Origin: a bacterium
GTDB lineage: Bacteria > B130-G9
Direction: 5' to 3'
Assembly: GCA_021160245.1 (NCBI GenBank)
Contig: JAGHCW010000045.1
Span: 1-13,166, forward strand
Length of the DNA: 13,166 nucleotides
The notes beneath the pieces are model-generated. The model ran no database searches, had not been told where the DNA came from, and saw only the letters and a list, made by a program, of their open reading frames with translations. The position numbers and the translations under genes were made by a program. This document shows, piece by piece, positions 406 through 11,534 of this stretch. The first letter of the stretch is position 1. Every line of letters begins with the position of its first letter.

Positions 406-2523
406 ATGAAGAGGATAAACTTCGCGTTCGGCGTGCATTTGCATCAGCCGCTTGGGAACTTTGACCATGTGTTTGAGTTTGCGCTCGAGAAGTCGTATCG
501 GCCATTCATGGAGACGCTCTGGCGTTTTGAGCGCGTGAAGACGGCCGTTCACGTGACCGGGACGCTTTGGGAGTGGATCGAGGCTCATCATCCAGAGTTC
601 TTCGATCTCATGCGTAAGCTTCAGGACCGGGGCCAGATCGAGGTGCTTGGCGGAGGCTTTTACGAGCCGATTCTCTCGGTTATCCCGGAGTGGGACAGAA
701 AGGCGCAGATTGCGCTTATGAACCGGCGGATAAAGAAGATGTTTGGCAAAAAGCCGAAGGGGATGTGGACTGCCGAGCGCGTGTGGGAGCCGCAGCTGGC
801 GTCGATAATCGCACGAGGCGGAATTGAGTATGTGGTCCTAGATGACTACCACTTCAAGGCGGCCGGACTTTTAAGCTCCGAGCTCTTTGGCTATTTCGTC
901 ACAGAGGACGCTGGCGAACGCCTCGCGGTGTTCCCGATCTCGGAGCGACTCCGCTACCTGATCCCGTTCGCAAAGCCGCAGGAGCCGATTGATTATCTTC
1001 GGGAGATGGCCTCGGATGACGGGGAGCGGCTGCTTGTTATGATCGACGACTGCGAGAAGTTTGGCGTCTGGCCGGGCACGCACAAGTGGGTCTTCAAGGA
1101 AAAATGGCTCGAGAAATTCCTGAAACTGCTCTCGGAGGCGGATTTCATAAACTTCGTAACGCCTTCAGAGTTCAAGAACTCATCTAAGCCGAGTGGCCGC
1201 GTCTATCTGCCAACTTGCTCGTATCACGAGATGGGTGAATGGTCGCTGCCAACCGAGTCCGCGCTCGTCTATGAGAGCCTTCTCGCCCAGCTGAAGGAAG
1301 ATGACAGTTTGGAGAGATATAAGCCTTTCGTTCGAGGCGGTTTCTGGCGGGGATTTCTCGCCAAATATCCCGAAAGCAACTACATGCACAAGAGAATGTG
1401 TTCTGTGAGCAAGATGGTTCACGGCGCCAAGGTCCCCGCCTCGGTGCGCAAACTCGCCGCAACCAACGTGATGCGGGCGCAGTGCAATTGCGCGTATTGG
1501 CATGGCATCTTCGGCGGTCTATATTTTCCCCACCTGCGATTTGCTATTTACAGGGAGCTCATTGAGGCGGAGTCATTGATCCAGTCGTCGCTTCTTGGGA
1601 AGAAGAAGTGGGTGTCGCTCAGTCAAGATGACATCGACGCGGATGGCGTGGACGAGGTTTTGATTGGCAACCCGAATCTCGGATGCGTTCTCTCAAGGAC
1701 AGGCGGGGCGATGGTTGAGCTTGATTGCCGCCGATCAAAGACGAACCTGCTCGATAGCCTTTCGCGGCACAAAGAGGCGTATCACGCTCATCTTCGGGCG
1801 TCCGATGACGAGGCCGACACCGACGAGCACGCGTCGATCCACGATCGGCAGTTTACGACTAGCGAGCGGATGATGAAGAGGCTGAACTACGATTGGCATC
1901 GGAAATGGTCATTTGTGGACCATTTTCTGGCGGCCGGCACGAAGCTTGCTGATGTTCGAGATGCCAAATACAGGGATTTGGGCGATTTTGTGAAGGCCAG
2001 GTTCGATCTTAAGACGAGCGAGTCCGGTAGCGTTGCGAGCGCCGAGTTTGCCCGCTGCGGCCATCTCTATTTTGATGAGGGGCGTCGCTCTTTGGAGCTT
2101 AAGAAACGTTTTAGCGTTGAGGCGGCCGGCTCCTCGGTCTGTTGTGATTATGAGATAAGAAACGCTGACGGCGAGTCTATCGAGGCAGTTTTTGGCGTGG
2201 AGTTTTCCATTGCATGTTATGGTGATAAGGAGCATTGTAGTTTCAGTCGCGGGGATGATGTTTGGGAGCCGCTTGCCGACACGGCCAGCTTGGAGCGGGT
2301 GAGTGCAGTTAGGCTTGCAGACCCTTATCGAGGTTATACAGTCAAGCTGGAATGGGACGGCGAGGCGGGCGTTTTCAGGTTTCCACTCGAGACAGTATCG
2401 CAGTCCGAAAAGGGATTTGACTTGATCAAGCAGGCGACGACCGTTGTAGTTCTATGGCCCTTGAATCTGGCTGGTGGAGCCTCGTTAAAAAGAAGCGTGT
2501 TGCTCGATCTATCGCCGCTTTGA
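406..2523 (+). CDS. GH57 family 4-alpha-glucanotransferase / alpha-amylase-like enzyme
   Basis: The 705-residue protein matches the GH57 family, close in layout to archaeal 4-alpha-glucanotransferases, which break and re-form alpha-1,4 glucosidic bonds in maltodextrin or glycogen. The HQP motif is at 13-15. WTAERVWEP (121-129) carries the expected nucleophile Glu124. DDCEKFGVWPG (214-224) carries the expected acid/base Asp, most likely Asp215. AYWHGIFGG, around residue 380, is the last conserved catalytic-domain block. The C-terminal 300 residues fit the DUF1925/DUF1926 all-beta region. Length is slightly above the usual 650-700. No signal peptide is seen, so it should be cytoplasmic. GAGGG lies four bases before the ATG. 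The motif usually reads DDGEKFG, and here Gly is Cys216. Glucanotransferase versus amylase cannot be decided by eye. The radical SAM gene follows after 36 bases. Confidence 0.88.
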   Translation: MKRINFAFGVHLHQPLGNFDHVFEFALEKSYRPFMETLWRFERVKTAVHVTGTLWEWIEAHHPEFFDLMRKLQDRGQIEVLGGGFYEPILSVIPEWDRKAQIALMNRRIKKMFGKKPKGMWTAERVWEPQLASIIARGGIEYVVLDDYHFKAAGLLSSELFGYFVTEDAGERLAVFPISERLRYLIPFAKPQEPIDYLREMASDDGERLLVMIDDCEKFGVWPGTHKWVFKEKWLEKFLKLLSEADFINFVTPSEFKNSSKPSGRVYLPTCSYHEMGEWSLPTESALVYESLLAQLKEDDSLERYKPFVRGGFWRGFLAKYPESNYMHKRMCSVSKMVHGAKVPASVRKLAATNVMRAQCNCAYWHGIFGGLYFPHLRFAIYRELIEAESLIQSSLLGKKKWVSLSQDDIDADGVDEVLIGNPNLGCVLSRTGGAMVELDCRRSKTNLLDSLSRHKEAYHAHLRASDDEADTDEHASIHDRQFTTSERMMKRLNYDWHRKWSFVDHFLAAGTKLADVRDAKYRDLGDFVKARFDLKTSESGSVASAEFARCGHLYFDEGRRSLELKKRFSVEAAGSSVCCDYEIRNADGESIEAVFGVEFSIACYGDKEHCSFSRGDDVWEPLADTASLERVSAVRLADPYRGYTVKLEWDGEAGVFRFPLETVSQSEKGFDLIKQATTVVVLWPLNLAGGASLKRSVLLDLSPL

Positions 2524-2559
2524 GGCCGGGTTATTGGCCCAAAAGGAAGGTGTTGTTGA

Positions 2560-3576
2560 ATGAGACTTAGGAATGTTTGGGAGATGGGAATGGGCGCGCT
2601 CAAGGCCAACTATCTCGGCCGGAGAATGCCGCTCAACGCGATGTTGTCTGTAACAAATCACTGCACCAGCCATTGCCGGTACTGCAATATCCCACTGAGG
2701 AAGCAGCGCGAGCTAACTACCGGTGAGATATTCAATCTCATTGACGGGCTGAGGCAGATGGGTTGCACGCGGCTGGGGCTTTGGGGTGGTGAACCGCTCG
2801 TTCGGGATGACATTGCGGAGATCGTCAACTACGCCTCGTTCAGGGGATTATATACAACCATGGACACAAATGGTTTTCTGGTGCCGGACAGAATCCATGA
2901 GCTCGGCAACTTGGAGCACATGATCATCGCGCTTGATGGCGACCGGGAGGCGCACGAGTTGAATCGGGAGCCGGATAGTTTTGATCGGGCGATGGAGGCG
3001 GTCAAAGTCGCCTCGAACAGACTGCCGTTCTGGTCGATTACGGTTCTCTCCAGGCATAATCTCCACTCAATAGACTTTATACTGGACACGGCGCGGAAGT
3101 ACAATTTTCTGACGACTTTTCAGGTGGTTCACCACAACGAAAAGCTCGGAGTTGACGTTCGCGATTTTGTGCCGACAAACGAGGACTACAAGGTCGCGAT
3201 CCGCAAGTTAATACTTGAGAAAAGACGCGGAGCCCCGATTGCCTCCAGCGAGCACTATTTGCGGCATCTTCTGGCGTGGGAGGACTACGCCACCCCAATG
3301 CTGCCCTACCGGTTTGGCGGGCTGAAATGCTGGGCCGGGCAGCTTTACTGCAACATTGACACAAACGGCGACTTCTATCCCTGCTCATTATTGATCGAGC
3401 TTATGGAGGCAAAGAACTTCCTTGATGTAGGCGTCAAGGAGGCGTTTGATTCGACGGCCAAGGTCTCATGCAAGGCGTGTGACGCCTCGTGCTTCACGGA
3501 GTACAACTACCTGTATTCTCTAGACCCGGGTGTGATCTTCAGTTGGATAAAATCGATGTATAGATCAAGGAAGTAA
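2560..3576 (+). CDS. Radical SAM protein with SPASM-like C-terminal cysteines
   Basis: This 338-residue protein has the CxxxCxxC motif of the radical SAM superfamily at Cys35, Cys39 and Cys42, which binds the catalytic [4Fe-4S] cluster. A GGEP motif at 76-79 is expected to contact the SAM methionine moiety. The C-terminal part has Cys257, Cys264, Cys275, Cys304, Cys307 and Cys311. The arrangement C-x12-G-x4-C, then CxxCxxxC, resembles SPASM/twitch domains that hold auxiliary iron-sulfur clusters, as in peptide-maturing and cofactor-building enzymes. AGGAAGG precedes the ATG by nine bases. The gene lies between a GH57 gene and a carbamoyltransferase whose start is two bases beyond its stop. 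No precursor peptide gene is evident, so a sugar or small-molecule substrate is as plausible as a peptide. The specific reaction is unknown. Confidence 0.85.
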   Translation: MRLRNVWEMGMGALKANYLGRRMPLNAMLSVTNHCTSHCRYCNIPLRKQRELTTGEIFNLIDGLRQMGCTRLGLWGGEPLVRDDIAEIVNYASFRGLYTTMDTNGFLVPDRIHELGNLEHMIIALDGDREAHELNREPDSFDRAMEAVKVASNRLPFWSITVLSRHNLHSIDFILDTARKYNFLTTFQVVHHNEKLGVDVRDFVPTNEDYKVAIRKLILEKRRGAPIASSEHYLRHLLAWEDYATPMLPYRFGGLKCWAGQLYCNIDTNGDFYPCSLLIELMEAKNFLDVGVKEAFDSTAKVSCKACDASCFTEYNYLYSLDPGVIFSWIKSMYRSRK

Positions 3577-3578
3577 TT

Positions 3579-5267
3579 GTGGAAACCTCTCGAGATCGAA
3601 TAATTCTTAGCTTTAGTGAGGATTTCACCTCAAACGCGTCGATCTTCGTTGATGGGAAGATTATCGCATCGGCCGCCGAGGAGCGCTTTAATCGCAAAAA
3701 ATGCAGCTCAGGTTTTCCGGAACAGGCCATACGATATTGCTTGTCCGAGGCCGGAGTTGAGCTGGCTGACGTGGACGTCGTTGTTGCTGCTAATCGGCTT
3801 CATTTCGTCTATCGACTATTCCCGAACCAGTTCAAGGAGTACAACCACGACTTCTTGAACCTGAAGCAGAAGGTTTACATGCACTATCACTCGGCCGTGA
3901 TGAAGAGCGAAATACTTCAAAAGCTCATTGAGCGATTCTGCGGCACTCTGGTTGAGCGGCGTGTTGGTCGAAAGATCGTCCTTTGTGATCACCACCTGAC
4001 ACATGCCTATTCCGCATTCATGACATCAGGCTTTGATGACGCGTTGTGTATCACCATCGACAACATCGGCGACGGGCTATCAGGCGGCGTTTTCCATTGC
4101 GCGGGCAGCAAGGTGCAGATGCTTTACGGCGTCCCCGCCCTGGCATCGGCGGGCCAGTTTTACGGCGAGATCACTCCGTATCTGGGGGTCAATCCACTAA
4201 AACATGCTGGCAAGGTGACTGGGCTTGCGGCTCGTTGCGACACCTATTACGCCTATCCGTTGATGATGAAGCTCTTCTCGCTGAGAGAAGATCAGAAGAG
4301 CTTTGTGCTACCGCCGATCATGTCGAAGAGCTTTAAACGAGGCGTTTACAGGAAGCTCGCGAAATACTCGGCCGAGGACATAGCCGCGGCCGCTCAGAGG
4401 CGCCTCGAGGACGTCGTACTCGATTTTGCCAAGCAGGCGCTTGCGCTGACGGGGCTAAGGCGGCTTGTGCTTGCAGGCGGCGTTGCGGCCAACGTTCGCA
4501 TGAACCAGAGGCTCCACGAGCTTGAGCAGGTTGACGAGATATTTGTCCACCCCGGCATGAGCGACGCCGGACTCTCACTCGGCGCCGGGCTTTGGTATCT
4601 GGCTGAGAAGAATGGGCTAAAACCGTTCAAGCTCAATGACGTCTTCTTCGGACCTGAGTTTGATGATGAGGCGGTGAAACGGGAACTCGACAAAGTCGGT
4701 GGAATCAAGGTCCAGAAGAAGCCTAACATGGCCGACACGATTGCGCGGCTGCTTGTCGATGGAAAGGTCGTGGCGAGGGCTTCTGGACGGATGGAGTACG
4801 GGCCTCGAGCATTGGGGAATCGGACGATTCTTTACAAGGCCGGCGATCCAACCGTCAATGACTGGCTTAACGTCAAATTGCGACGGACTGAGTTTATGCC
4901 ATTTGCCCCTGTAACGCCGGCCGAGGACGCCTCGAAGAGCTATCTTGGGCTTGCTGGCGCAGAATATACGGCCAAATTCATGACGATAGCGTTTGATTGC
5001 ACTGACGAGATGAAGAGGCAATGTCCCGGTGTTGTTCACGTTGACGGCACCGCGCGGCCGCAGTTGATATGCCGCGAGGACAACGGGGAGTACTACGACA
5101 TCGTGAAGCGCTACTTCGAGCTCACGGGCATATCAAGCCTCATCAACACGTCATTCAACATGCACGAGGAGCCGATAGTCTGCACCCCCTACGATGCTAT
5201 TCGCGCCTTCAAGCTCGGCCACCTCGACTACCTTTTGATCAATAGCTTCTTGGTCGAGAACGTTTGA
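3579..5267 (+). CDS. O-carbamoyltransferase, NodU/CmcH/TobZ family
   Basis: The 562-residue protein has the two-part layout of the NodU/CmcH/TobZ family, which moves a carbamoyl group from carbamoyl phosphate through carbamoyl-adenylate to a hydroxyl on a sugar or antibiotic. The N-terminal Kae1-like ASKHA domain shows AAEERFNRKK (32-41), HHLTHAYSAF (138-147) with likely metal-binding histidines, DNIGDG (161-166) and GGVAANVRMN (300-309). The C-terminal domain shows MEYGPRALGNR (405-415), VHVDGTARPQ (486-495) and NTSFNMHEEPI (523-533). Length is normal. Two oddities are seen: the usual His-Asp-containing stretch near residues 12-20 reads FSEDFTSNAS, and the usual DGxGD is DNIGD. The start is GTG, with AAGGAAG five bases upstream inside the end of the preceding gene, so translation is probably coupled. 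The acceptor substrate is unknown. Confidence 0.9.
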   Translation: METSRDRIILSFSEDFTSNASIFVDGKIIASAAEERFNRKKCSSGFPEQAIRYCLSEAGVELADVDVVVAANRLHFVYRLFPNQFKEYNHDFLNLKQKVYMHYHSAVMKSEILQKLIERFCGTLVERRVGRKIVLCDHHLTHAYSAFMTSGFDDALCITIDNIGDGLSGGVFHCAGSKVQMLYGVPALASAGQFYGEITPYLGVNPLKHAGKVTGLAARCDTYYAYPLMMKLFSLREDQKSFVLPPIMSKSFKRGVYRKLAKYSAEDIAAAAQRRLEDVVLDFAKQALALTGLRRLVLAGGVAANVRMNQRLHELEQVDEIFVHPGMSDAGLSLGAGLWYLAEKNGLKPFKLNDVFFGPEFDDEAVKRELDKVGGIKVQKKPNMADTIARLLVDGKVVARASGRMEYGPRALGNRTILYKAGDPTVNDWLNVKLRRTEFMPFAPVTPAEDASKSYLGLAGAEYTAKFMTIAFDCTDEMKRQCPGVVHVDGTARPQLICREDNGEYYDIVKRYFELTGISSLINTSFNMHEEPIVCTPYDAIRAFKLGHLDYLLINSFLVENV

Positions 5268-5416
5268 GGCAGAGCTGCCGGTGCAATCCGCTTACGAGTC
5301 TGTTGAGCAAAGACCTCAATAGAGACGCGACTAGGCTCAATATGGGAACCGGGATTCGATTATGGCAGCACTAGACGACTGGGTTTTCATTTGTGCTTAA
5401 GAAGTTGCGGAGAGAG
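5268..5416 (+). other. Gap between carbamoyltransferase and patatin genes
   Basis: No gene or convincing terminator is seen here. A weak hairpin, TTGAG/CTCAA (5303-5307 and 5315-5319), has no T-run. Short frames of 10 to 14 codons have no ribosome-binding sites. No promoter with both elements at correct spacing was found, so whether the patatin gene has its own promoter is open. Confidence 0.5.
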
Positions 5417-6436
5417 ATGAATATAGTTTTTCGAGACCGGAAGTGTTTGACAGCGCGACTCAGCGGATTCGTGCTACTCGTTTTGATGCTTATTTCTGTC
5501 GTCGGCTGCAGCCCCAGATGTGTGGTTCCGTTTGTCTCGGAGCAGAGCAAGCTTCTTCTAACCCCGCGCGAGCGGCTCTCACCCTCAGTTCTGCCAATTG
5601 CCCCGACGGAGGAGACCGGTATCTCAGGTAAGGATTCGGAGCGCCCTCGTGTAGCGCTCGTGCTTGGCAGCGGCGGCACACGAGGCATTGCGCATATTGG
5701 CGTGCTCAGAGCTCTCAGACAGCACGGCATTCCGGTTGACCTGGTCGTAGGTTGCTCGGCCGGCTCCCTTGTCGGCGCGCTCTTCTGCTCCGGGATGGAA
5801 CAGGACAAGATGGAGCGGATCGCCCTGACCTCCCGGCGAAAAGATATCTTTGGTTACGTGATATCCATGAATGGTGTGATTGATGGAACCAGATGCGAGT
5901 CGTTTCTCATCGAGCACATCGGTCGCTTGCGCTTCGGCCAGCTTGATACGCCATTTGCTGTTATTTGCACCGATGTGGAGACCGGAGAGGAAATAGTGAT
6001 TTCACGAGGTGACGTGGCTCGCGCAGTCCGGGCCAGCTGCACGTTTCCGGGACTTGTGATCCCGATGAGGGTAGATGGCCGGCTTCTCGTGGACGGCGGC
6101 GTTGTTGACAAGCTGCCGGTAACCGTTGCCAAAAAACTTGGCGCTGATGTAGTCATCGCAGTTGACGTCAGCGCTGGCATCTCTGGCACGCGCGTGACAA
6201 GCGCGGTTGACGTGCTCGTCCAAACAATCAATATAATGGGTAAGGAAATAACCAAGAGCGAGTTGAGATTGGCAGACGTTGTGATAAGGCCCGATGTTGG
6301 GGAAGTATGGATGCTTGATTTCAGGGACGGGAAGAAATGCATAGATGCCGGAATGGAGGCGGCAACCGCGGCCATACCTGCTATACGACGCGCTCTAGAG
6401 CAGAAGGGCAGTGGGAAGGAGGCCGCCACTCGATAG
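5417..6436 (+). CDS. Patatin-like phospholipase, lipoprotein form
   Basis: This is a predicted patatin/RssA-type serine hydrolase acting on acyl esters such as phospholipids. Counting from the ATG, a charged start and a hydrophobic stretch end in VVGC with Cys31, a lipobox for signal peptidase II. The protein should therefore be membrane-anchored outside the cytoplasm. The hydrolase domain starts near residue 77 with the oxyanion-hole motif GSGGTRG. It continues with GCSAG, nucleophile Ser114, and VDGG, catalytic Asp226, completing a Ser-Asp dyad. Length of 339 is normal. An upstream in-frame GTG at 5393 would add eight residues, but it has no ribosome-binding site. The ATG has GGAG four bases away. 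It is separated from the carbamoyltransferase by about 150 bases, so it may or may not share that transcript. The substrate is not known. Confidence 0.85.
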   Translation: MNIVFRDRKCLTARLSGFVLLVLMLISVVGCSPRCVVPFVSEQSKLLLTPRERLSPSVLPIAPTEETGISGKDSERPRVALVLGSGGTRGIAHIGVLRALRQHGIPVDLVVGCSAGSLVGALFCSGMEQDKMERIALTSRRKDIFGYVISMNGVIDGTRCESFLIEHIGRLRFGQLDTPFAVICTDVETGEEIVISRGDVARAVRASCTFPGLVIPMRVDGRLLVDGGVVDKLPVTVAKKLGADVVIAVDVSAGISGTRVTSAVDVLVQTINIMGKEITKSELRLADVVIRPDVGEVWMLDFRDGKKCIDAGMEAATAAIPAIRRALEQKGSGKEAATR

Positions 6437-6638: not shown

Positions 6639-6677
6639 TAATTTTTCGATAGTTCTTTGTAGAGTGGTTAACTCTTC

Positions 6678-6683
6678 GGAGGG
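6678..6683 (+). promoter_or_regulatory. Shine-Dalgarno fixing the prs start
   Basis: GGAGGG lies four bases before the ATG at 6688. It makes that codon the start rather than the in-frame GTG at 6664, which has no such site. Confidence 0.75.
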
Positions 6684-6687
6684 ATTC

Positions 6688-7632
6688 ATGCTTACAGACG
6701 AGTTAAGGGTATTCACAGGCAACGGGAATAGGCCTCTTGCGAAGATGATCTGTGAATACTTAGATATCACGCTTGGCAATGCCGACGTGGGTCGTTTCAG
6801 CGACGGCGAGATAATGGTCCAGATAGAGGAGAATGTTCGAGGCCGGGACGTATTTGTGGTGCAATCAATGGGCCGGCCGGTCAATGCTAATATCATGGAG
6901 CTTCTGCTCATGATTGATGCGTTAAAGCGCGCCTCGGCAGGCAGAATAACCGCCGTTTTGCCCTATTATTGCTATGCGCGACAGGATAGAAAGCGGCAAC
7001 CCAGAGTGCCGATCTCTGCGAAGTTGATGGCCGACCTTCTCAATGCGAGCGGTGCGGATCGTGCGCTATCGGTTGACCTCCATGCTGGGCAAATACAGGG
7101 CTTTTTCGACGTGCCGTTCGATCACCTCCATGCTGCGCCAGTTCTTGCGAGCTATCTTAAGGAGTTGGAGCTGAAGGACCTCGCCGTCGTGTCGCCTGAC
7201 GCTGGCGGCGTCGAGCGAGCGAGAATGTTTGCCAAAAGGTTGAACAGCAGCCTTGCAATAATCGACAAGCGCCGGGATGCGCCCAATGTTTCTGAAGTAT
7301 GTCATATCATCGGCGATGTCTTGAACAGAGATGTCCTGCTTCTAGACGATATGATCGACACAGCCGGCACAATTGCCAATTCTGCCATCGCGCTTCGATC
7401 AGCGGGGGCGAGGCGTATCTTTGCCGCCTGCACACACCCGGTATTGTCCGGGAAGGCTTACGAGAGGCTGGCCGAGTCGCCGATAGAGAAGATCATAACG
7501 ACTGACACGATACCAATCGACAGAAAGAAAGACACAAAGAACAAGATCATTGTTTTATCAATAGCCTCACTTATTGGGGAGGCGGTCAAGAGGGTGAGTA
7601 GGTCGCTCTCGATAAGCGAGATGTTCGAGTAG
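6688..7632 (+). CDS. prs: Ribose-phosphate pyrophosphokinase (PRPP synthetase)
   Basis: It makes 5-phosphoribosyl-1-diphosphate from ribose 5-phosphate and ATP, the precursor of nucleotides, histidine and tryptophan, in the cytoplasm. Counted from the ATG, the 314-residue length is typical of bacterial class I enzymes. Recognisable motifs include PYYCYARQDRK near 92-102, which covers the flexible ATP-binding segment, and VDLHAGQIQGFF near 129-140, which contains a metal-binding His. The PRPP-binding loop DDMIDTAGTI is at 220-229. All key positions look intact. It follows tRNA-Gln by 49 bases and precedes rplY by 24 bases, matching a known prs-rplY-pth gene order. Confidence 0.95.
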   Translation: MLTDELRVFTGNGNRPLAKMICEYLDITLGNADVGRFSDGEIMVQIEENVRGRDVFVVQSMGRPVNANIMELLLMIDALKRASAGRITAVLPYYCYARQDRKRQPRVPISAKLMADLLNASGADRALSVDLHAGQIQGFFDVPFDHLHAAPVLASYLKELELKDLAVVSPDAGGVERARMFAKRLNSSLAIIDKRRDAPNVSEVCHIIGDVLNRDVLLLDDMIDTAGTIANSAIALRSAGARRIFAACTHPVLSGKAYERLAESPIEKIITTDTIPIDRKKDTKNKIIVLSIASLIGEAVKRVSRSLSISEMFE

Positions 7633-7656
7633 CGAAAAAGCGTTAGGAGCAATTAG

Positions 7657-8283
7657 GTGGGAAAGAATCTCAGATTAAACGCGTCGGCCAGGGCGGAGAC
7701 AGGAGGAGGCGTTAGCCGAAAACTACGTCGGCATGGAAAGATGCCGGGCGTGGTTTACGGTCCCGATATGGAGACTGTGCCTATAGTCTTTGAGACAAAC
7801 GAGATGATGCACATTCTCCGGATGCCGGAATATGAGACGGAGCTCGTTAGCATCAAGATCGGTGATAGCGAGCCCGTGGACGTTCTTATCAAGGACGCTC
7901 GGTATGACCATATTGGTTTGAAGTTGCTTCACGTCGATTTTTACAGGATCAAGCGTGGCTCGAAAGTCACCGTGGATGTTCCTTTAGTAATGCAGGGCCT
8001 TGCGATAGGCGTCAAGATGGGCGGCATCTTGCAGGTCAATATGAGGCTCATCAAGATACGCAGTCTTCCTCGGGACCTAATCCATGAGATTATAGTGGAT
8101 GTCTCGGAGATGGATGTTGGCGATTCTAAGCACATCGGGGACTTGGACGTCCCGGAGACTATAGAGGTGCTTGAAGAAGAGCGTCGGACAATCGTGACAC
8201 TTCTCGCCAAGAAGGCTGAGGAAGAGGAGAAAGAGGAGGAGGAACTGGAAGAAGCTGAAGAGGATGAGAGTAAGGAGGAGTAA
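7657..8283 (+). CDS. rplY: Large ribosomal subunit protein bL25, CTC type
   Basis: L25 binds 5S rRNA in the 50S subunit. The 208-residue protein is the long CTC/TL5 form, not the roughly 95-residue E. coli form. The first 90 or so residues hold the 5S-binding domain, with KLRRHGKMPGVVYG near 22-35 and LLHVDFYRI near 89-97. A beta-rich C-terminal domain follows. The last 20 or so residues are almost entirely Glu and Asp with a few Lys and Ala, giving a strongly acidic tail. The start is GTG with AGGAG seven bases upstream. Its 3' end overlaps the longest reading of pth by 20 bases. Confidence 0.93.
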   Translation: MGKNLRLNASARAETGGGVSRKLRRHGKMPGVVYGPDMETVPIVFETNEMMHILRMPEYETELVSIKIGDSEPVDVLIKDARYDHIGLKLLHVDFYRIKRGSKVTVDVPLVMQGLAIGVKMGGILQVNMRLIKIRSLPRDLIHEIIVDVSEMDVGDSKHIGDLDVPETIEVLEEERRTIVTLLAKKAEEEEKEEEELEEAEEDESKEE

Positions 8284-8926
8284 TATAATTCGGCGAAGTG
8301 GCGTCTGGTCACGCCTTAAGAGACGGCAGCGTCCTCGAGATGCGCTTTTGGTCGGGCTAGGAAACCCGGGCGATGAATACGCGGGCACTCGTCACAATGC
8401 CGGTTTTATGGTCATAGACAGTATAGCAACAGGTCTGAGCGCCTCATTCACAGAGCGCTCAGGCGGGAAGACACTGGATTACTCGATTGACGGACGTCGC
8501 GTTGTGCTGGCCAAACCGGGGACCTATGTCAACAGGTCTGGGCAGTATATAGTGCCGGCGCTCCGGCGTTTCAAGGTTAGTATTGACAATCTTCTGGTGT
8601 TACATGATGATATTACATTGGAGCTAGGGAAGAGCAAATTCAAGTTCGGTGGCGGCGCGTCTGGTCACGGTGGGTTGCGTTCGATAATTGAGCAACTCAA
8701 CACAGATGATTTCTATCGATTGAGAATAGGAATCGGTCAGCCGGAACAAGGGGCTTCGAGAGTAGATTGGGTCCTTTCTCGGTTTCCTCCGGATGAGCTT
8801 GTGATAATGAATGAGGTGATTGAAAGATGCACGACAGCGGTAAGGGATTTTGCTACACAAGGCGGAGTCGCAGCTATGAATCTTCACAATAGGAGATTAA
8901 GGAGAGGAAAAGGGGTAGCCAATTGA
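8264..8926 (+). CDS. pth: Peptidyl-tRNA hydrolase
   Basis: Pth releases tRNA from prematurely dropped peptidyl-tRNA by cutting the ester bond. From the first in-frame ATG, GLGNPG (31-36) carries Asn34, TRHNAGF (42-48) carries catalytic His44, KPGTYVNRSG (84-93) carries Asn90, and LHDDI (113-117) carries Asp115, the equivalent of the E. coli catalytic Asp. FGGGASGHGGLRS (128-140) is also typical. Family members usually start two to four residues before VGLGNPG, so the basic 27-residue N-terminal extension is odd. The ATG at 8264 lies inside rplY and has only a weak ribosome-binding site. A strong AAGGAGG (8272-8278) points instead at in-frame ATA 8285 or ATT 8288. TTG at 8348 would give the standard length. 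The 3' end overlaps the rpsF start by four bases. Confidence 0.92.
   Translation: MRVRRSNIIRRSGVWSRLKRRQRPRDALLVGLGNPGDEYAGTRHNAGFMVIDSIATGLSASFTERSGGKTLDYSIDGRRVVLAKPGTYVNRSGQYIVPALRRFKVSIDNLLVLHDDITLELGKSKFKFGGGASGHGGLRSIIEQLNTDDFYRLRIGIGQPEQGASRVDWVLSRFPPDELVIMNEVIERCTTAVRDFATQGGVAAMNLHNRRLRRGKGVAN
8272..8278 (+). promoter_or_regulatory. Strong Shine-Dalgarno without a standard start codon
   Basis: AAGGAGG sits just before the rplY stop and is ideal as a ribosome-binding site. The codons at usable distance in the pth frame are ATA (8285) and ATT (8288), both rare starts. The same bases encode Lys-Glu-Glu at the L25 tail, so the match may be coincidental. Confidence 0.35.
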
Positions 8927-9279
8927 GGGCGTACGAACTTGTATATGCTCTTGTCCCGAATCTTGCCGACGAGGATAGGGTCGCGCTTATCAAGCGATTT
9001 GAGGAGCTTGCGAAGCGGCTTGCATGTACCCATATTGAATTGCAGCTTTGGGGTATCAGGAAGACAGCGTATGAATTGAAGAAGTTCCGCGACGCATACT
9101 ATGTCCAGATGCGTTTGGTCGCGGAGCCGTCAGCAAAGGATGAGATAGAGAGGCAGTTAAGGCTTTCCGATCGTGTCCTTCGGCACCTCTTCGTGAGGCT
9201 TCCGGAGAACGAGGATATGGTTGAGGAAGAAGAGATTGATGAAGGAGCGGCGCAAGTCGCTGAAGAAGAATCTGAATAA
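8923..9279 (+). CDS. rpsF: Small ribosomal subunit protein bS6
   Basis: S6 binds 16S rRNA in the platform of the 30S subunit as a partner of S18, which is encoded two genes downstream. The 118-residue protein begins MRAYELVYALVP and shows WGIRKTAYELKK near 44-55 and VLRHLFVRLPE near 85-95, standard S6 blocks. The last 20 or so residues are an acidic extension. The start codon is TTG, sharing four bases (TTGA) with the pth stop. AGGGG lies seven bases upstream, so re-initiation after pth is likely. Confidence 0.95.
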   Translation: MRAYELVYALVPNLADEDRVALIKRFEELAKRLACTHIELQLWGIRKTAYELKKFRDAYYVQMRLVAEPSAKDEIERQLRLSDRVLRHLFVRLPENEDMVEEEEIDEGAAQVAEEESE

Positions 9280-9297
9280 GATGAGAGGACATTTTCG

Positions 9298-9711
9298 ATG
9301 GCCGATCTGAATAGGGTGTTTTTGGTTGGGCGACTCACCCATGATGCAGAGCTCAAATACACAACCTCAAACCGGGCCGTATGTGAGTTCTCGATTGCGA
9401 TCAACACTCCTAAGAAGGAGGGCGGCCAGTGGAAAGATGAGGCGATGTTTATCAATCGCATCTCCTTCTGGGGTGAGCGTGCCGAGGCAGTGGCTGAGTA
9501 CCTTCTAAAGGGCAAGCTCGTCTTTGTGGAGGGGAAGCTGCGGATGGATGAATGGGAGCAGGACGGTCAGAAGCGTAGGATGCTTAAGGTTGTCGCGTTT
9601 AATGTTCAGATTCTGTCATCTCCTAGGACGGATTCAACCGGTGGCGCCCTAAGTGATAAGCCCTTCAAAAAGCCCGATGAGAAGCTTCCTGATGACGATC
9701 TGCCGTTCTAA
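9298..9711 (+). CDS. ssb: Single-stranded DNA-binding protein
   Basis: SSB coats single-stranded DNA during replication, repair and recombination. The 137-residue protein has the OB-fold start NRVFLVGRLTHDAELKY (5-21), the FSIAIN strand at 31-36, and FWGERAEAVAEYLLKG near 57-72. A short linker follows, and the C-terminal tip DDDLPF recruits partner proteins. Length is short relative to E. coli but normal for many bacteria. AGAGGA lies about nine bases before the ATG. Its place between rpsF and rpsR is a widespread conserved order. Confidence 0.95.
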   Translation: MADLNRVFLVGRLTHDAELKYTTSNRAVCEFSIAINTPKKEGGQWKDEAMFINRISFWGERAEAVAEYLLKGKLVFVEGKLRMDEWEQDGQKRRMLKVVAFNVQILSSPRTDSTGGALSDKPFKKPDEKLPDDDLPF

Positions 9712-9726
9712 ATAGGGAACGCCAGT

Positions 9727-9740
9727 CGCCTCGGAAGGCG
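9727..9740 (+). repeat. Small hairpin between ssb and rpsR
   Basis: CGCCT (9727-9731) and AGGCG (9736-9740) form a 5-bp stem with loop CGGA in the 72-base gap. No T-run follows, so it is unlikely to be a terminator. An RNA-processing or protein-binding role is possible but unsupported. Confidence 0.3.
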
Positions 9741-9783
9741 TAGTGTAGATTGTATGGAATATTGACTCTAGGAATGAGAAATT

Positions 9784-10011
9784 ATGGCTATTGGTCAGAG
9801 GTCTTACAGGCGACGATACTGCAGGTTCTGCGAGAAGAAGACTGATGAGGTTAGCTACAAAGAGGCAGACCTCCTGAAGAACTTCATAACTGCTAGAGGG
9901 AAGATCATCCCTCGCCGGATTTCCGGCACTTGCGCAAGGCATCAGCGCCAACTAACAACGGCAATTAAGCGCGCTAGAATCCTGGCTCTCCTTCCCTTCG
10001 CCGGTGAATAG
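9784..10011 (+). CDS. rpsR: Small ribosomal subunit protein bS18, zinc-binding (C+) form
   Basis: S18 pairs with S6 on the 30S platform. The 75-residue protein is of normal length and shows YCRFCEKK (12-19), [12 protein letters not shown] (25-36), a [12 protein letters not shown] run (39-50) and ARHQRQL (51-57), all typical. Cys13, Cys16, Cys50 and His53 make a likely zinc site, which marks the C+ version of S18. A moderate AGGA lies ten bases before the ATG. The gene directly precedes the DUF2232 gene. Confidence 0.95.
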
Positions 10012-10022
10012 GGAGGGGTCCG

Positions 10023-11036
10023 TTGGCGCCCGATTGTCCCGAGAATCCCGACGGCAGATTTGCGGAAGGCGCCGTATCCTTTAGGAAAATAGCATACGGC
10101 TCGCTTCTGGCTGCGGCGCTTCTTACGTTTTTGCATCTTGCGGCGCCGGAGCTAAACATAGTGACCAAATTCGTGTTGCCCCTGCCACTGGCAATGATCT
10201 ACATCTTGTTTGGGGCGTCCGCCGGTTTGGTCTTGCTGTCCGGATGCTCTGTGGCGCTATTTGCGTTTGCCTCGGTTGAGCACGCGATTTCCTTCGTGGC
10301 CGACGGGGCGGTTCTTGCTGTGTTGCTAGGCGAGTATCTCAAAAGGGGTACTACTCCGACCAGGACTATCGCGATTGGCGTTCTTTGTATTTCCGTAATC
10401 GTGACAGCAGGTGTTTTGCTGAAGACGCCGGAGATCTTTGACGGAGACTCCGAAGCGGGTTTGAGTCGGCTCTTCAACAAGGGTGATGAATCGGACAGAG
10501 AGCCCGCGCTACAGCCGTTAAAGGACTCACTTGGAGAAGAGGACGCGGCGAAACTTCTGAATTATATGGTTCTCTCGCTCCCATCGTTGATTGCGATGGG
10601 CGCCTTTCTGCAAACGCTTCTCGTGTTCCTCGCATTCAGAGTGCTTGTGAAGAGGATATTCGGTGAGGCGCAGGCCGGTGAGCATCTGACGGAACGGTTC
10701 ACTCTCTGGCACGCGCCGGACATCTTGGTCTTCGGCATTTTGCTGTCTGCGGCGTTGGCGCTGCTATTTGATGGGTCGATTTTTCAGATCTCGCTTAACT
10801 GCCTCATTATTCTTGGGGCCGTCTATTGCATTCAGGGAATGGCCATCGCTTTATTCTATTTGCAGCGAATAAAAGTGCCTCAGTCCTTGCGGTGGATAAC
10901 CGTTATAGTAGTCTTAGTTGGATTTGGCCGGTATGGCTCGTTTTTAATGTATGCCGCAATGGGGATTATGGACGTTTTCTTCGACTTCCGTAAAATAAGG
11001 CAAAGGCATTCGCCGCAGGCTCAAGAGGATAAGTAG
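10023..11036 (+). CDS. DUF2232 / YybS-like polytopic membrane protein
   Basis: The 337-residue protein is strongly hydrophobic, with about eight predicted membrane segments near 23-43, 50-72, 75-104, 114-134, 181-210, 231-251, 254-281 and 288-318. A charged, soluble loop lies around 135-178. The C-terminal signature MGIMDVFFDFRKI (313-325) and the position between rpsR and rplI match the YybS/DUF2232 family, whose function is not established. The start is TTG with GGGAGGGG four bases upstream. A Met or GTG start with a comparable site is not seen nearby. The gap to rpsR is 11 bases, so it should be on the ribosomal-protein transcript. Confidence 0.8.
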   Translation: MAPDCPENPDGRFAEGAVSFRKIAYGSLLAAALLTFLHLAAPELNIVTKFVLPLPLAMIYILFGASAGLVLLSGCSVALFAFASVEHAISFVADGAVLAVLLGEYLKRGTTPTRTIAIGVLCISVIVTAGVLLKTPEIFDGDSEAGLSRLFNKGDESDREPALQPLKDSLGEEDAAKLLNYMVLSLPSLIAMGAFLQTLLVFLAFRVLVKRIFGEAQAGEHLTERFTLWHAPDILVFGILLSAALALLFDGSIFQISLNCLIILGAVYCIQGMAIALFYLQRIKVPQSLRWITVIVVLVGFGRYGSFLMYAAMGIMDVFFDFRKIRQRHSPQAQEDK

Positions 11037-11046
11037 CATTGCACTT

Positions 11047-11052
11047 AAGGAG
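11047..11052 (+). promoter_or_regulatory. Shine-Dalgarno fixing the rplI start
   Basis: AAGGAG lies eight bases before ATG 11061. It overlaps the alternative GTG at 11052, which therefore cannot use it. Confidence 0.75.
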
Positions 11053-11060
11053 TGGTTGTT

Positions 11061-11534
11061 ATGGCAAACGTTGAAGTATATTTGAAGCAGGATATGGAGA
11101 AGATGGGCAAGGCCGGAGATCGGGTCTTGGTTAAGAGCGGATTCGCTCGGAACTATCTGATCCCCCGGAATCTCGCGATGATCGTAACAAAGGGCGGCGT
11201 GAAGGTTCTTGATGACGTTGCACGCCAGATTGCGAAGAAGAAGCGGACGGAGCTCAAGGACGCTGAGAGTGTCGCCGCCGCTTTGGGCGAGCTGAAGCTA
11301 CTCATCACCCGGCAGGCGGGCGAGGAAGGCAAGATATTTGGATCAGTCTCGGCCCGGGATATCGCGGCCGTTGTCGAGGAGAAGGGGATGCAGGTCGATT
11401 ACAGAAAAATACAGCTTGAAAGGCCGATCAAGTCTCTGGGCATTCATACCGTCCCGGTGAGAATTCACCCCGAAATAACTGCAGAACTGAAGGTGTGGGT
11501 TGAGGAGGAAAAAGGGGAAGAGACCACGAAGTGA
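11061..11534 (+). CDS. rplI: Large ribosomal subunit protein bL9
   Basis: L9 is an elongated protein binding 23S rRNA near the L1 stalk base and helps hold reading frame. From the ATG the 157-residue protein begins MANVEVYLKQDMEKMGKAG. It then carries the L9 signature GFARNYLIPRNLA near 27-39, a central helix rich in Lys and Glu, and a C-terminal domain with GKIFGSVSARDIA near 91-103. A short acidic/charged tail ends the protein. Length is slightly above the usual 148-150. The kinase gene follows after 39 bases. Confidence 0.94.
   Translation: MANVEVYLKQDMEKMGKAGDRVLVKSGFARNYLIPRNLAMIVTKGGVKVLDDVARQIAKKKRTELKDAESVAAALGELKLLITRQAGEEGKIFGSVSARDIAAVVEEKGMQVDYRKIQLERPIKSLGIHTVPVRIHPEITAELKVWVEEEKGEETTK

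Follow-up and report, generated by a model that had tools for sequence, protein, structure and literature searches.

Gene layout and conservation of the locus

The stretch analysed here (the window) is the entire contig C239 of a Candidatus Coatesbacteria metagenome-assembled genome (GenBank JAGHCW010000045.1, 13,166 nucleotides; genome 3.43 Mb, 244 contigs). Three genes on the same strand, coding for a GH57 enzyme, a radical S-adenosylmethionine (SAM) enzyme and a class III carbamoyltransferase (CbT), lie close together near its left end and are the subject of this work:

406..2523, + strand: GH57 enzyme, predicted 4-alpha-glucanotransferase/alpha-amylase type, 705 amino acids, three domains; Glu124 and Asp215 aligned to structure 1k1w of the Thermococcus litoralis 4-alpha-glucanotransferase (TLGT)
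2560..3576, + strand: radical SAM enzyme, 338 amino acids; CX3CX2C at Cys35/39/42; SPASM-like, non-canonical C-terminal cysteines
3564..3581, + strand: radical SAM/CbT junction; AAGGAAG ribosome-binding site in the last radical SAM codons, TAA stop, GTG start after 2 further bases
3579..5267, + strand: class III (NodU/TobZ/GdmN-like) CbT, 562 amino acids, GTG start

The reading frames match exactly the initial annotation of the window, which had described a tight cluster with gaps of 36 and 2 bases, and its assignment of the genes to the GH57, radical SAM and carbamoyltransferase families was borne out by Pfam. The contig begins 405 bases upstream of the GH57 gene, and no gene was recognised in those bases. 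A promoter and terminator scan gave no excess over shuffles.

Four Coatesbacteria genomes (G000, G001, G002, G003), covering three genera of one family, were compared. The order GH57, radical SAM, CbT is kept in all four, the GH57 gene of G001 being truncated by a contig end with its last 90 residues remaining. Sequence identity across these genomes is 81-82% for the radical SAM protein, 74-76% for CbT and 64-65% for GH57. Where the contig reaches, the GH57 and radical SAM genes are separated by 36, 6 and 74 bases, and no junction of the trio exceeds 74 bases. The radical SAM-CbT junctions measure 2, 5, -1 and -1 bases, every CbT gene starts with GTG, and an AGGAA-type ribosome-binding site lies within the last codons of the upstream gene. 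The translational coupling proposed earlier for this pair is probable.

The flanks of the trio differ among the genomes. In the window they consist of a patatin-like gene, tRNA-Gln and prs, while G002 and G003 carry an EF-G-like gene upstream on the opposite strand (named from its sequence). A B12-binding radical SAM gene lies downstream of the trio in two genomes, and its product is kin to the Sden_1168-type P-methyltransferases (327 bits, cut-off 575 bits):

L016:5653-7188, - strand: B12-binding radical SAM gene in G002
L013:3426-4628, + strand, cut: B12-binding radical SAM gene in G001

The tight junctions, the order kept in all four genomes and the differing flanks make it very probable that the trio is an operon, which would be co-transcribed and which behaves like an ordinary conserved operon. 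It is at least as old as the sampled Coatesbacteria family.

A control was carried out between G000 and G002. Same-strand neighbours at most 100 bases apart stay together in 10 of 13 directed tests, whereas all other neighbours are retained in just 2 of 16 (Fisher p = 0.0007); only 22 orthologue pairs were sampled, and because each was counted from both sides the tests are not independent. We regard the control as good evidence for a real cluster and only moderate evidence for a single pathway. The alternative that the genes are neighbours by chance, or that their order was inherited neutrally, would draw on the sampling of one family and on the usual retention of operon-like neighbours at such divergence, but non-operon neighbours are mostly lost, the flanks of the trio are not retained and the junctions are tight in every genome, which leaves this explanation extremely improbable.

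Beyond the trio, the right part of the window contains the patatin-like gene, tRNA-Gln, a housekeeping block and a histidine kinase:

5393..6436, + strand: patatin-like protein with a lipoprotein-like N-terminus (LMLISVVGC); lies beyond the conserved unit
6664-11534: housekeeping block prs-rplY-pth-rpsF-ssb-rpsR-DUF2232-rplI, several names assigned by reading the sequence
9784-10011: rpsR, short but present

No homologue of the patatin-like protein was found in the other three Coatesbacteria genomes (E <= 1e-20), and on this ground the gene was rejected as a fourth operon member.

Properties of the three enzymes

The GH57 protein scores above the cut-off for the Pfam domains Glyco_hydro_57, AmyA-A_glucT_m and AmyA-gluTrfs_C (174, 108 and 220 bits, respectively), all three shared with TLGT, to which it aligns over its full length (E 3e-158). 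Glu124 and Asp215 align with TLGT Glu123 and Asp214, which we take to be the catalytic nucleophile and the acid, and both are invariant in three Coatesbacteria genomes. The protein is predicted to be of the 4-alpha-glucanotransferase/alpha-amylase type, acting as a transferase or a hydrolase. Unlike TLGT, it is encoded in a cluster with radical SAM and carbamoyltransferase genes.

The radical SAM protein matches Pfam Radical_SAM (PF04055, E 2e-19). Its C-terminal part has six further invariant cysteines (257, 264, 275, 304, 307, 311) of the auxiliary-cluster type. The initial annotation had called it a radical SAM/SPASM protein; the radical SAM part holds, whereas the SPASM domain is sub-threshold (15.5 bits, cut-off 21.5, profile positions 1-22 only) and the cysteine pattern is a variant. 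Compared with what we take to be the canonical pattern, CX9-15GX4C followed by CX2CX5CX3C, the first half fits (C257-x12-G270-x4-C275) and the second half reads C304-x2-C307-x3-C311.

By sequence profile, BlsE, the cytosylglucuronate decarboxylase, ranks first among the solved relatives. A fold search with an AlphaFold2 model built from five sequences (mean pLDDT, i.e. predicted local distance difference test, of 70; cluster loops weak) gave PqqE first and BlsE second, and other SPASM or related enzymes matched. Although BlsE (PDB 7vob) and PqqE (6c8v) are the closest solved relatives, their identity to the window protein is about 16-20%, its NCBIfam scores fall far short of the equivalog cut-off for either enzyme, and it departs from the canonical SPASM pattern in its C-terminal cysteines. 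The top NCBIfam match, near full length, is the PTO1314 family (TIGR03961; 117 bits, cut-off 306), a hypothetical equivalog with no function assigned. A hopanoid role, with the radical SAM protein as HpnH and carbamoyl hopanoids as products, was rejected: the HpnH score is 44.8 bits against a cut-off of 225, and the paper found concerns Alphaproteobacteria.

CbT contains the Kae1-like Carbam_trans_N (118.7 bits) and the YrdC-like Carbam_trans_C domain (180.7 bits). The Kae1-like metal motif (H138xxxH142 with Asp329) and the YrdC-like adenylation motif (S525xN527) are intact, and both domains and motifs are shared with GdmN, NovN and TobZ (PDB 7vyj, 9s2t and 3ven), from which the genomic setting differs. 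Compared with GdmN, CbT is about 120 residues shorter, misses the C-terminal extension and has Phe16 in place of His27. With 126.9 bits against the NodU equivalog cut-off of 1000, CbT is not NodU.

In GdmN, His27 is the reported general base, the H27N exchange abolishes activity, and the residue is described as invariant throughout the GdmN subclade (PMC9633730). Phe16 occupies the His27 column in all four Coatesbacteria proteins; this placement falls where the local alignment ends, Phe16 standing one residue ahead of Asp28, the first GdmN residue aligned. The column is His in 28 of 42 aligned CbT sequences, and the Coatesbacteria proteins have no His anywhere in this loop, in which Glu14-Asp15 is invariant. 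As judged from the alignment, Phe16 is a genuine departure from the best-studied class III mechanism. The earlier description as a NodU/CmcH-type enzyme that carbamoylates hydroxyls therefore stands for the class III domains and motifs only; with a score below the NodU cut-off and the essential His replaced, carbamoylation of hydroxyls cannot be assumed.

This replacement, invariant in four genomes, raises the question whether CbT has ceased to be an O-carbamoyltransferase. It might instead carbamoylate amines or thiols, rely on a different base, or provide carbamoyl-AMP for a separate reaction. However, ten further aligned relatives, some of which, such as L115, lie in surface-sugar loci, are likewise without His at this position, so the family tolerates variation there. 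Of these ten, L107, L135 and L136, which are among the nearest relatives, have a His three residues earlier, and several others are more distant. In addition, Glu14-Asp15 might substitute. We give this explanation little weight.

Genomic neighbourhoods of related genes

CbT relatives (E <= 1e-70) were found in 43 of 386 genomes, and none was seen on viral contigs in the scan. Many of the eighteen loci first read lie amid polysaccharide genes (flippases, glycosyltransferases, NeuB, cytidylyltransferase, PMT-type transferases), and some relatives accompany genes for QueC-like PP-loop ATPases. In a FastTree phylogeny of 42 CbTs, the Coatesbacteria proteins belong to a 13-member clade (support 0.98) whose other nine members come from the phylum of G037. 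Six of these nine directly adjoin radical SAM genes, and the linkage thus extends across the clade. A SPASM-type gene lies 2-7 bases before CbT in L108, L109 and L137 (Pfam SPASM shown for L109), and L107 and L135 have a B12-type radical SAM-like gene about 4.5-5 kb from CbT (assigned by motif only). Of the other CbT loci examined, a radical SAM gene stands directly beside CbT in L117 only.

A search for radical SAM-CbT adjacency in other genomes had been suggested with the initial annotation. The adjacency is present in all four Coatesbacteria genomes and partly in the second phylum (that of G037, G182 and G316), where same-clade CbT genes lie next to radical SAM genes as in the window. However, the radical SAM proteins there are of the canonical SPASM or giant multi-module B12 type and not orthologous to that of the window, and no GH57 gene occurs in the stretches read. 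The link is therefore one between a CbT clade and the radical SAM superfamily. A functional link between the radical SAM enzyme and CbT is likely.

The giant single frames, about 2170-2314 residues long, belong to one candidate phylum and are located on or close to the 3' side of CbT:

L108:9844-16788, + strand
L109:11288-18001, + strand, cut
L116:1366-8118, - strand
L138:11480-18001, + strand, cut
L139:10101-16823, + strand

In these five loci, CbT is followed by the frame of 2174-2314 residues, whose radical SAM motifs number four or five, and in L109 and L138 a B12-type radical SAM gene lies in between. Domain scans of two frames, L108 and L116, showed five radical SAM domains and four B12-binding domains in each. 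A cobalamin radical SAM protein with five fused modules seems unusual. Separately, in L115:3315-7941 (- strand), a CbT gene whose product also has no loop His neighbours genes for two NeuB-type synthases and a cytidylyltransferase, possibly a carbamoylated nonulosonate locus.

Relatives of the radical SAM protein (E <= 1e-45) occur in 16 of the 386 genomes. The trio was not seen in the 382 genomes outside the Coatesbacteria, and neither GH57 nor CbT genes were found near these relatives in the stretches fetched (as much as about 9 kb to either side, contigs permitting). These relatives (36-50% identity) overlap or abut DegT sugar aminotransferase genes in L015 (Myxococcota), L041 and L042, and DegT is close by in L043. 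Others abut or overlap a GDP-mannose-dehydratase-like epimerase (L036) or flavoproteins (L034, L043), a DUF362 gene neighbours the relative in L038 and is also found by the radical SAM position in L035, and the relative in L014 adjoins Tes/TrsS-like radical SAM and U32 genes. In unrelated genomes, CbT co-occurs with orthologues of the radical SAM protein in 4 of 10 cases versus 10% overall (p = 0.012, kinship ignored), a figure that was not relied on.

These neighbourhoods bear on whether the pair acts on something other than a carbohydrate, i.e. a nucleoside, tRNA, lipid or peptide. Such a substrate would suit the QueC-like genes beside CbT relatives, the Tes/TrsS-like and U32 genes of L014, and the peptide enzymes PqqE, SkfB and SuiB and the viperins among the structural neighbours of the radical SAM model; additionally, a carbamoyltransferase is reportedly implicated in a cytosine modification (PMC8670742). 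It is nevertheless unlikely, as sugar genes make up most neighbours of the relatives and no small open reading frame for a precursor peptide is conserved beside the trio across all genomes. A role in making ribosomally synthesized and post-translationally modified peptides was rejected on the latter ground; a downstream similarity between G001 and G002 and a short upstream match between G002 and G003 are both missing from the genome of the window.

A possible carbohydrate-tailoring route

Sugar genes predominate around the relatives, so carbohydrate tailoring is our best guess. We propose tentatively, with a probability of roughly 0.4, that the operon encodes a route combining an alpha-glucan enzyme, a radical modification and carbamoylation. 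The odds that the substrate is a carbohydrate are about even. In the presumed order of steps, the GH57 4-alpha-glucanotransferase would make or trim an intracellular alpha-1,4-glucan or malto-oligosaccharide acceptor. The radical SAM enzyme would then use the 5'-deoxyadenosyl radical for hydrogen abstraction at a sugar carbon (oxidation, epimerisation or deoxygenation), its C-terminal cysteines presumably holding one or more auxiliary Fe-S clusters. Finally, the YrdC-like domain of CbT would adenylate carbamoyl phosphate, and the Kae1-like domain would transfer the carbamoyl group to the modified product. The earlier suggestion of a glycan or secondary-metabolite modification agrees with this as far as the glycan is concerned, although GH57 is tied to the pair only in Coatesbacteria.

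Several points weigh against such a route. A shared operon alone is no proof of a shared pathway, and all four genomes with the trio come from one family. The DUF362, U32-peptidase and second radical SAM neighbours of the relatives do not indicate sugars, and CbT is without the His base reported necessary for an O-carbamoyltransferase of its class. GH57 relatives are common (131 of the 386 genomes searched, mostly without the pair) and show no link to it in genomes other than those of Coatesbacteria. Together with the radical SAM-CbT adjacency without GH57 in another phylum, this last point favours the pair alone as the pathway unit, tailoring a surface glycan or glycolipid whose biosynthesis genes lie elsewhere, with GH57 as a housekeeping alpha-glucan enzyme sharing the promoter. 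Glycogen synthase is encoded away from the trio in three of the four Coatesbacteria genomes, so alpha-glucan metabolism may exist independently of the pair. Against this, GH57 stays first wherever the contig reaches, despite the reshuffled flanks. We consider the pair alone a somewhat unlikely but serious possibility. In the proposed three-enzyme route, the part of GH57 is plausible, and as it joins the pair only in Coatesbacteria we infer it rather than observe it.

A more specific form of the carbohydrate-tailoring route would be restricted to Coatesbacteria. Radical C-H chemistry and a class III CbT without the base would act on an acceptor derived from alpha-glucan and yield an undescribed carbamoylated saccharide, the loss of His reflecting a different acceptor or mechanism. 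This is a speculative proposal that we consider quite improbable.

In line with the initial annotation, which knew of no described pathway with this trio, no published description was found in the open-access literature; this is weak evidence of novelty, as most subscription papers were outside its scope. One match with related words was an unrelated transcriptome study. We regard the trio as a real, conserved and undescribed operon.

The operon is small, cleanly bounded and testable, and it belongs to a phylum with very little literature, named in six papers of the open-access collection searched. The findings suggest that, across two phyla, one carbamoyltransferase clade recurrently partners with radical SAM enzymes. 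Furthermore, the CbT with Phe16 is a naturally occurring case for testing whether class III enzymes truly require the catalytic His.

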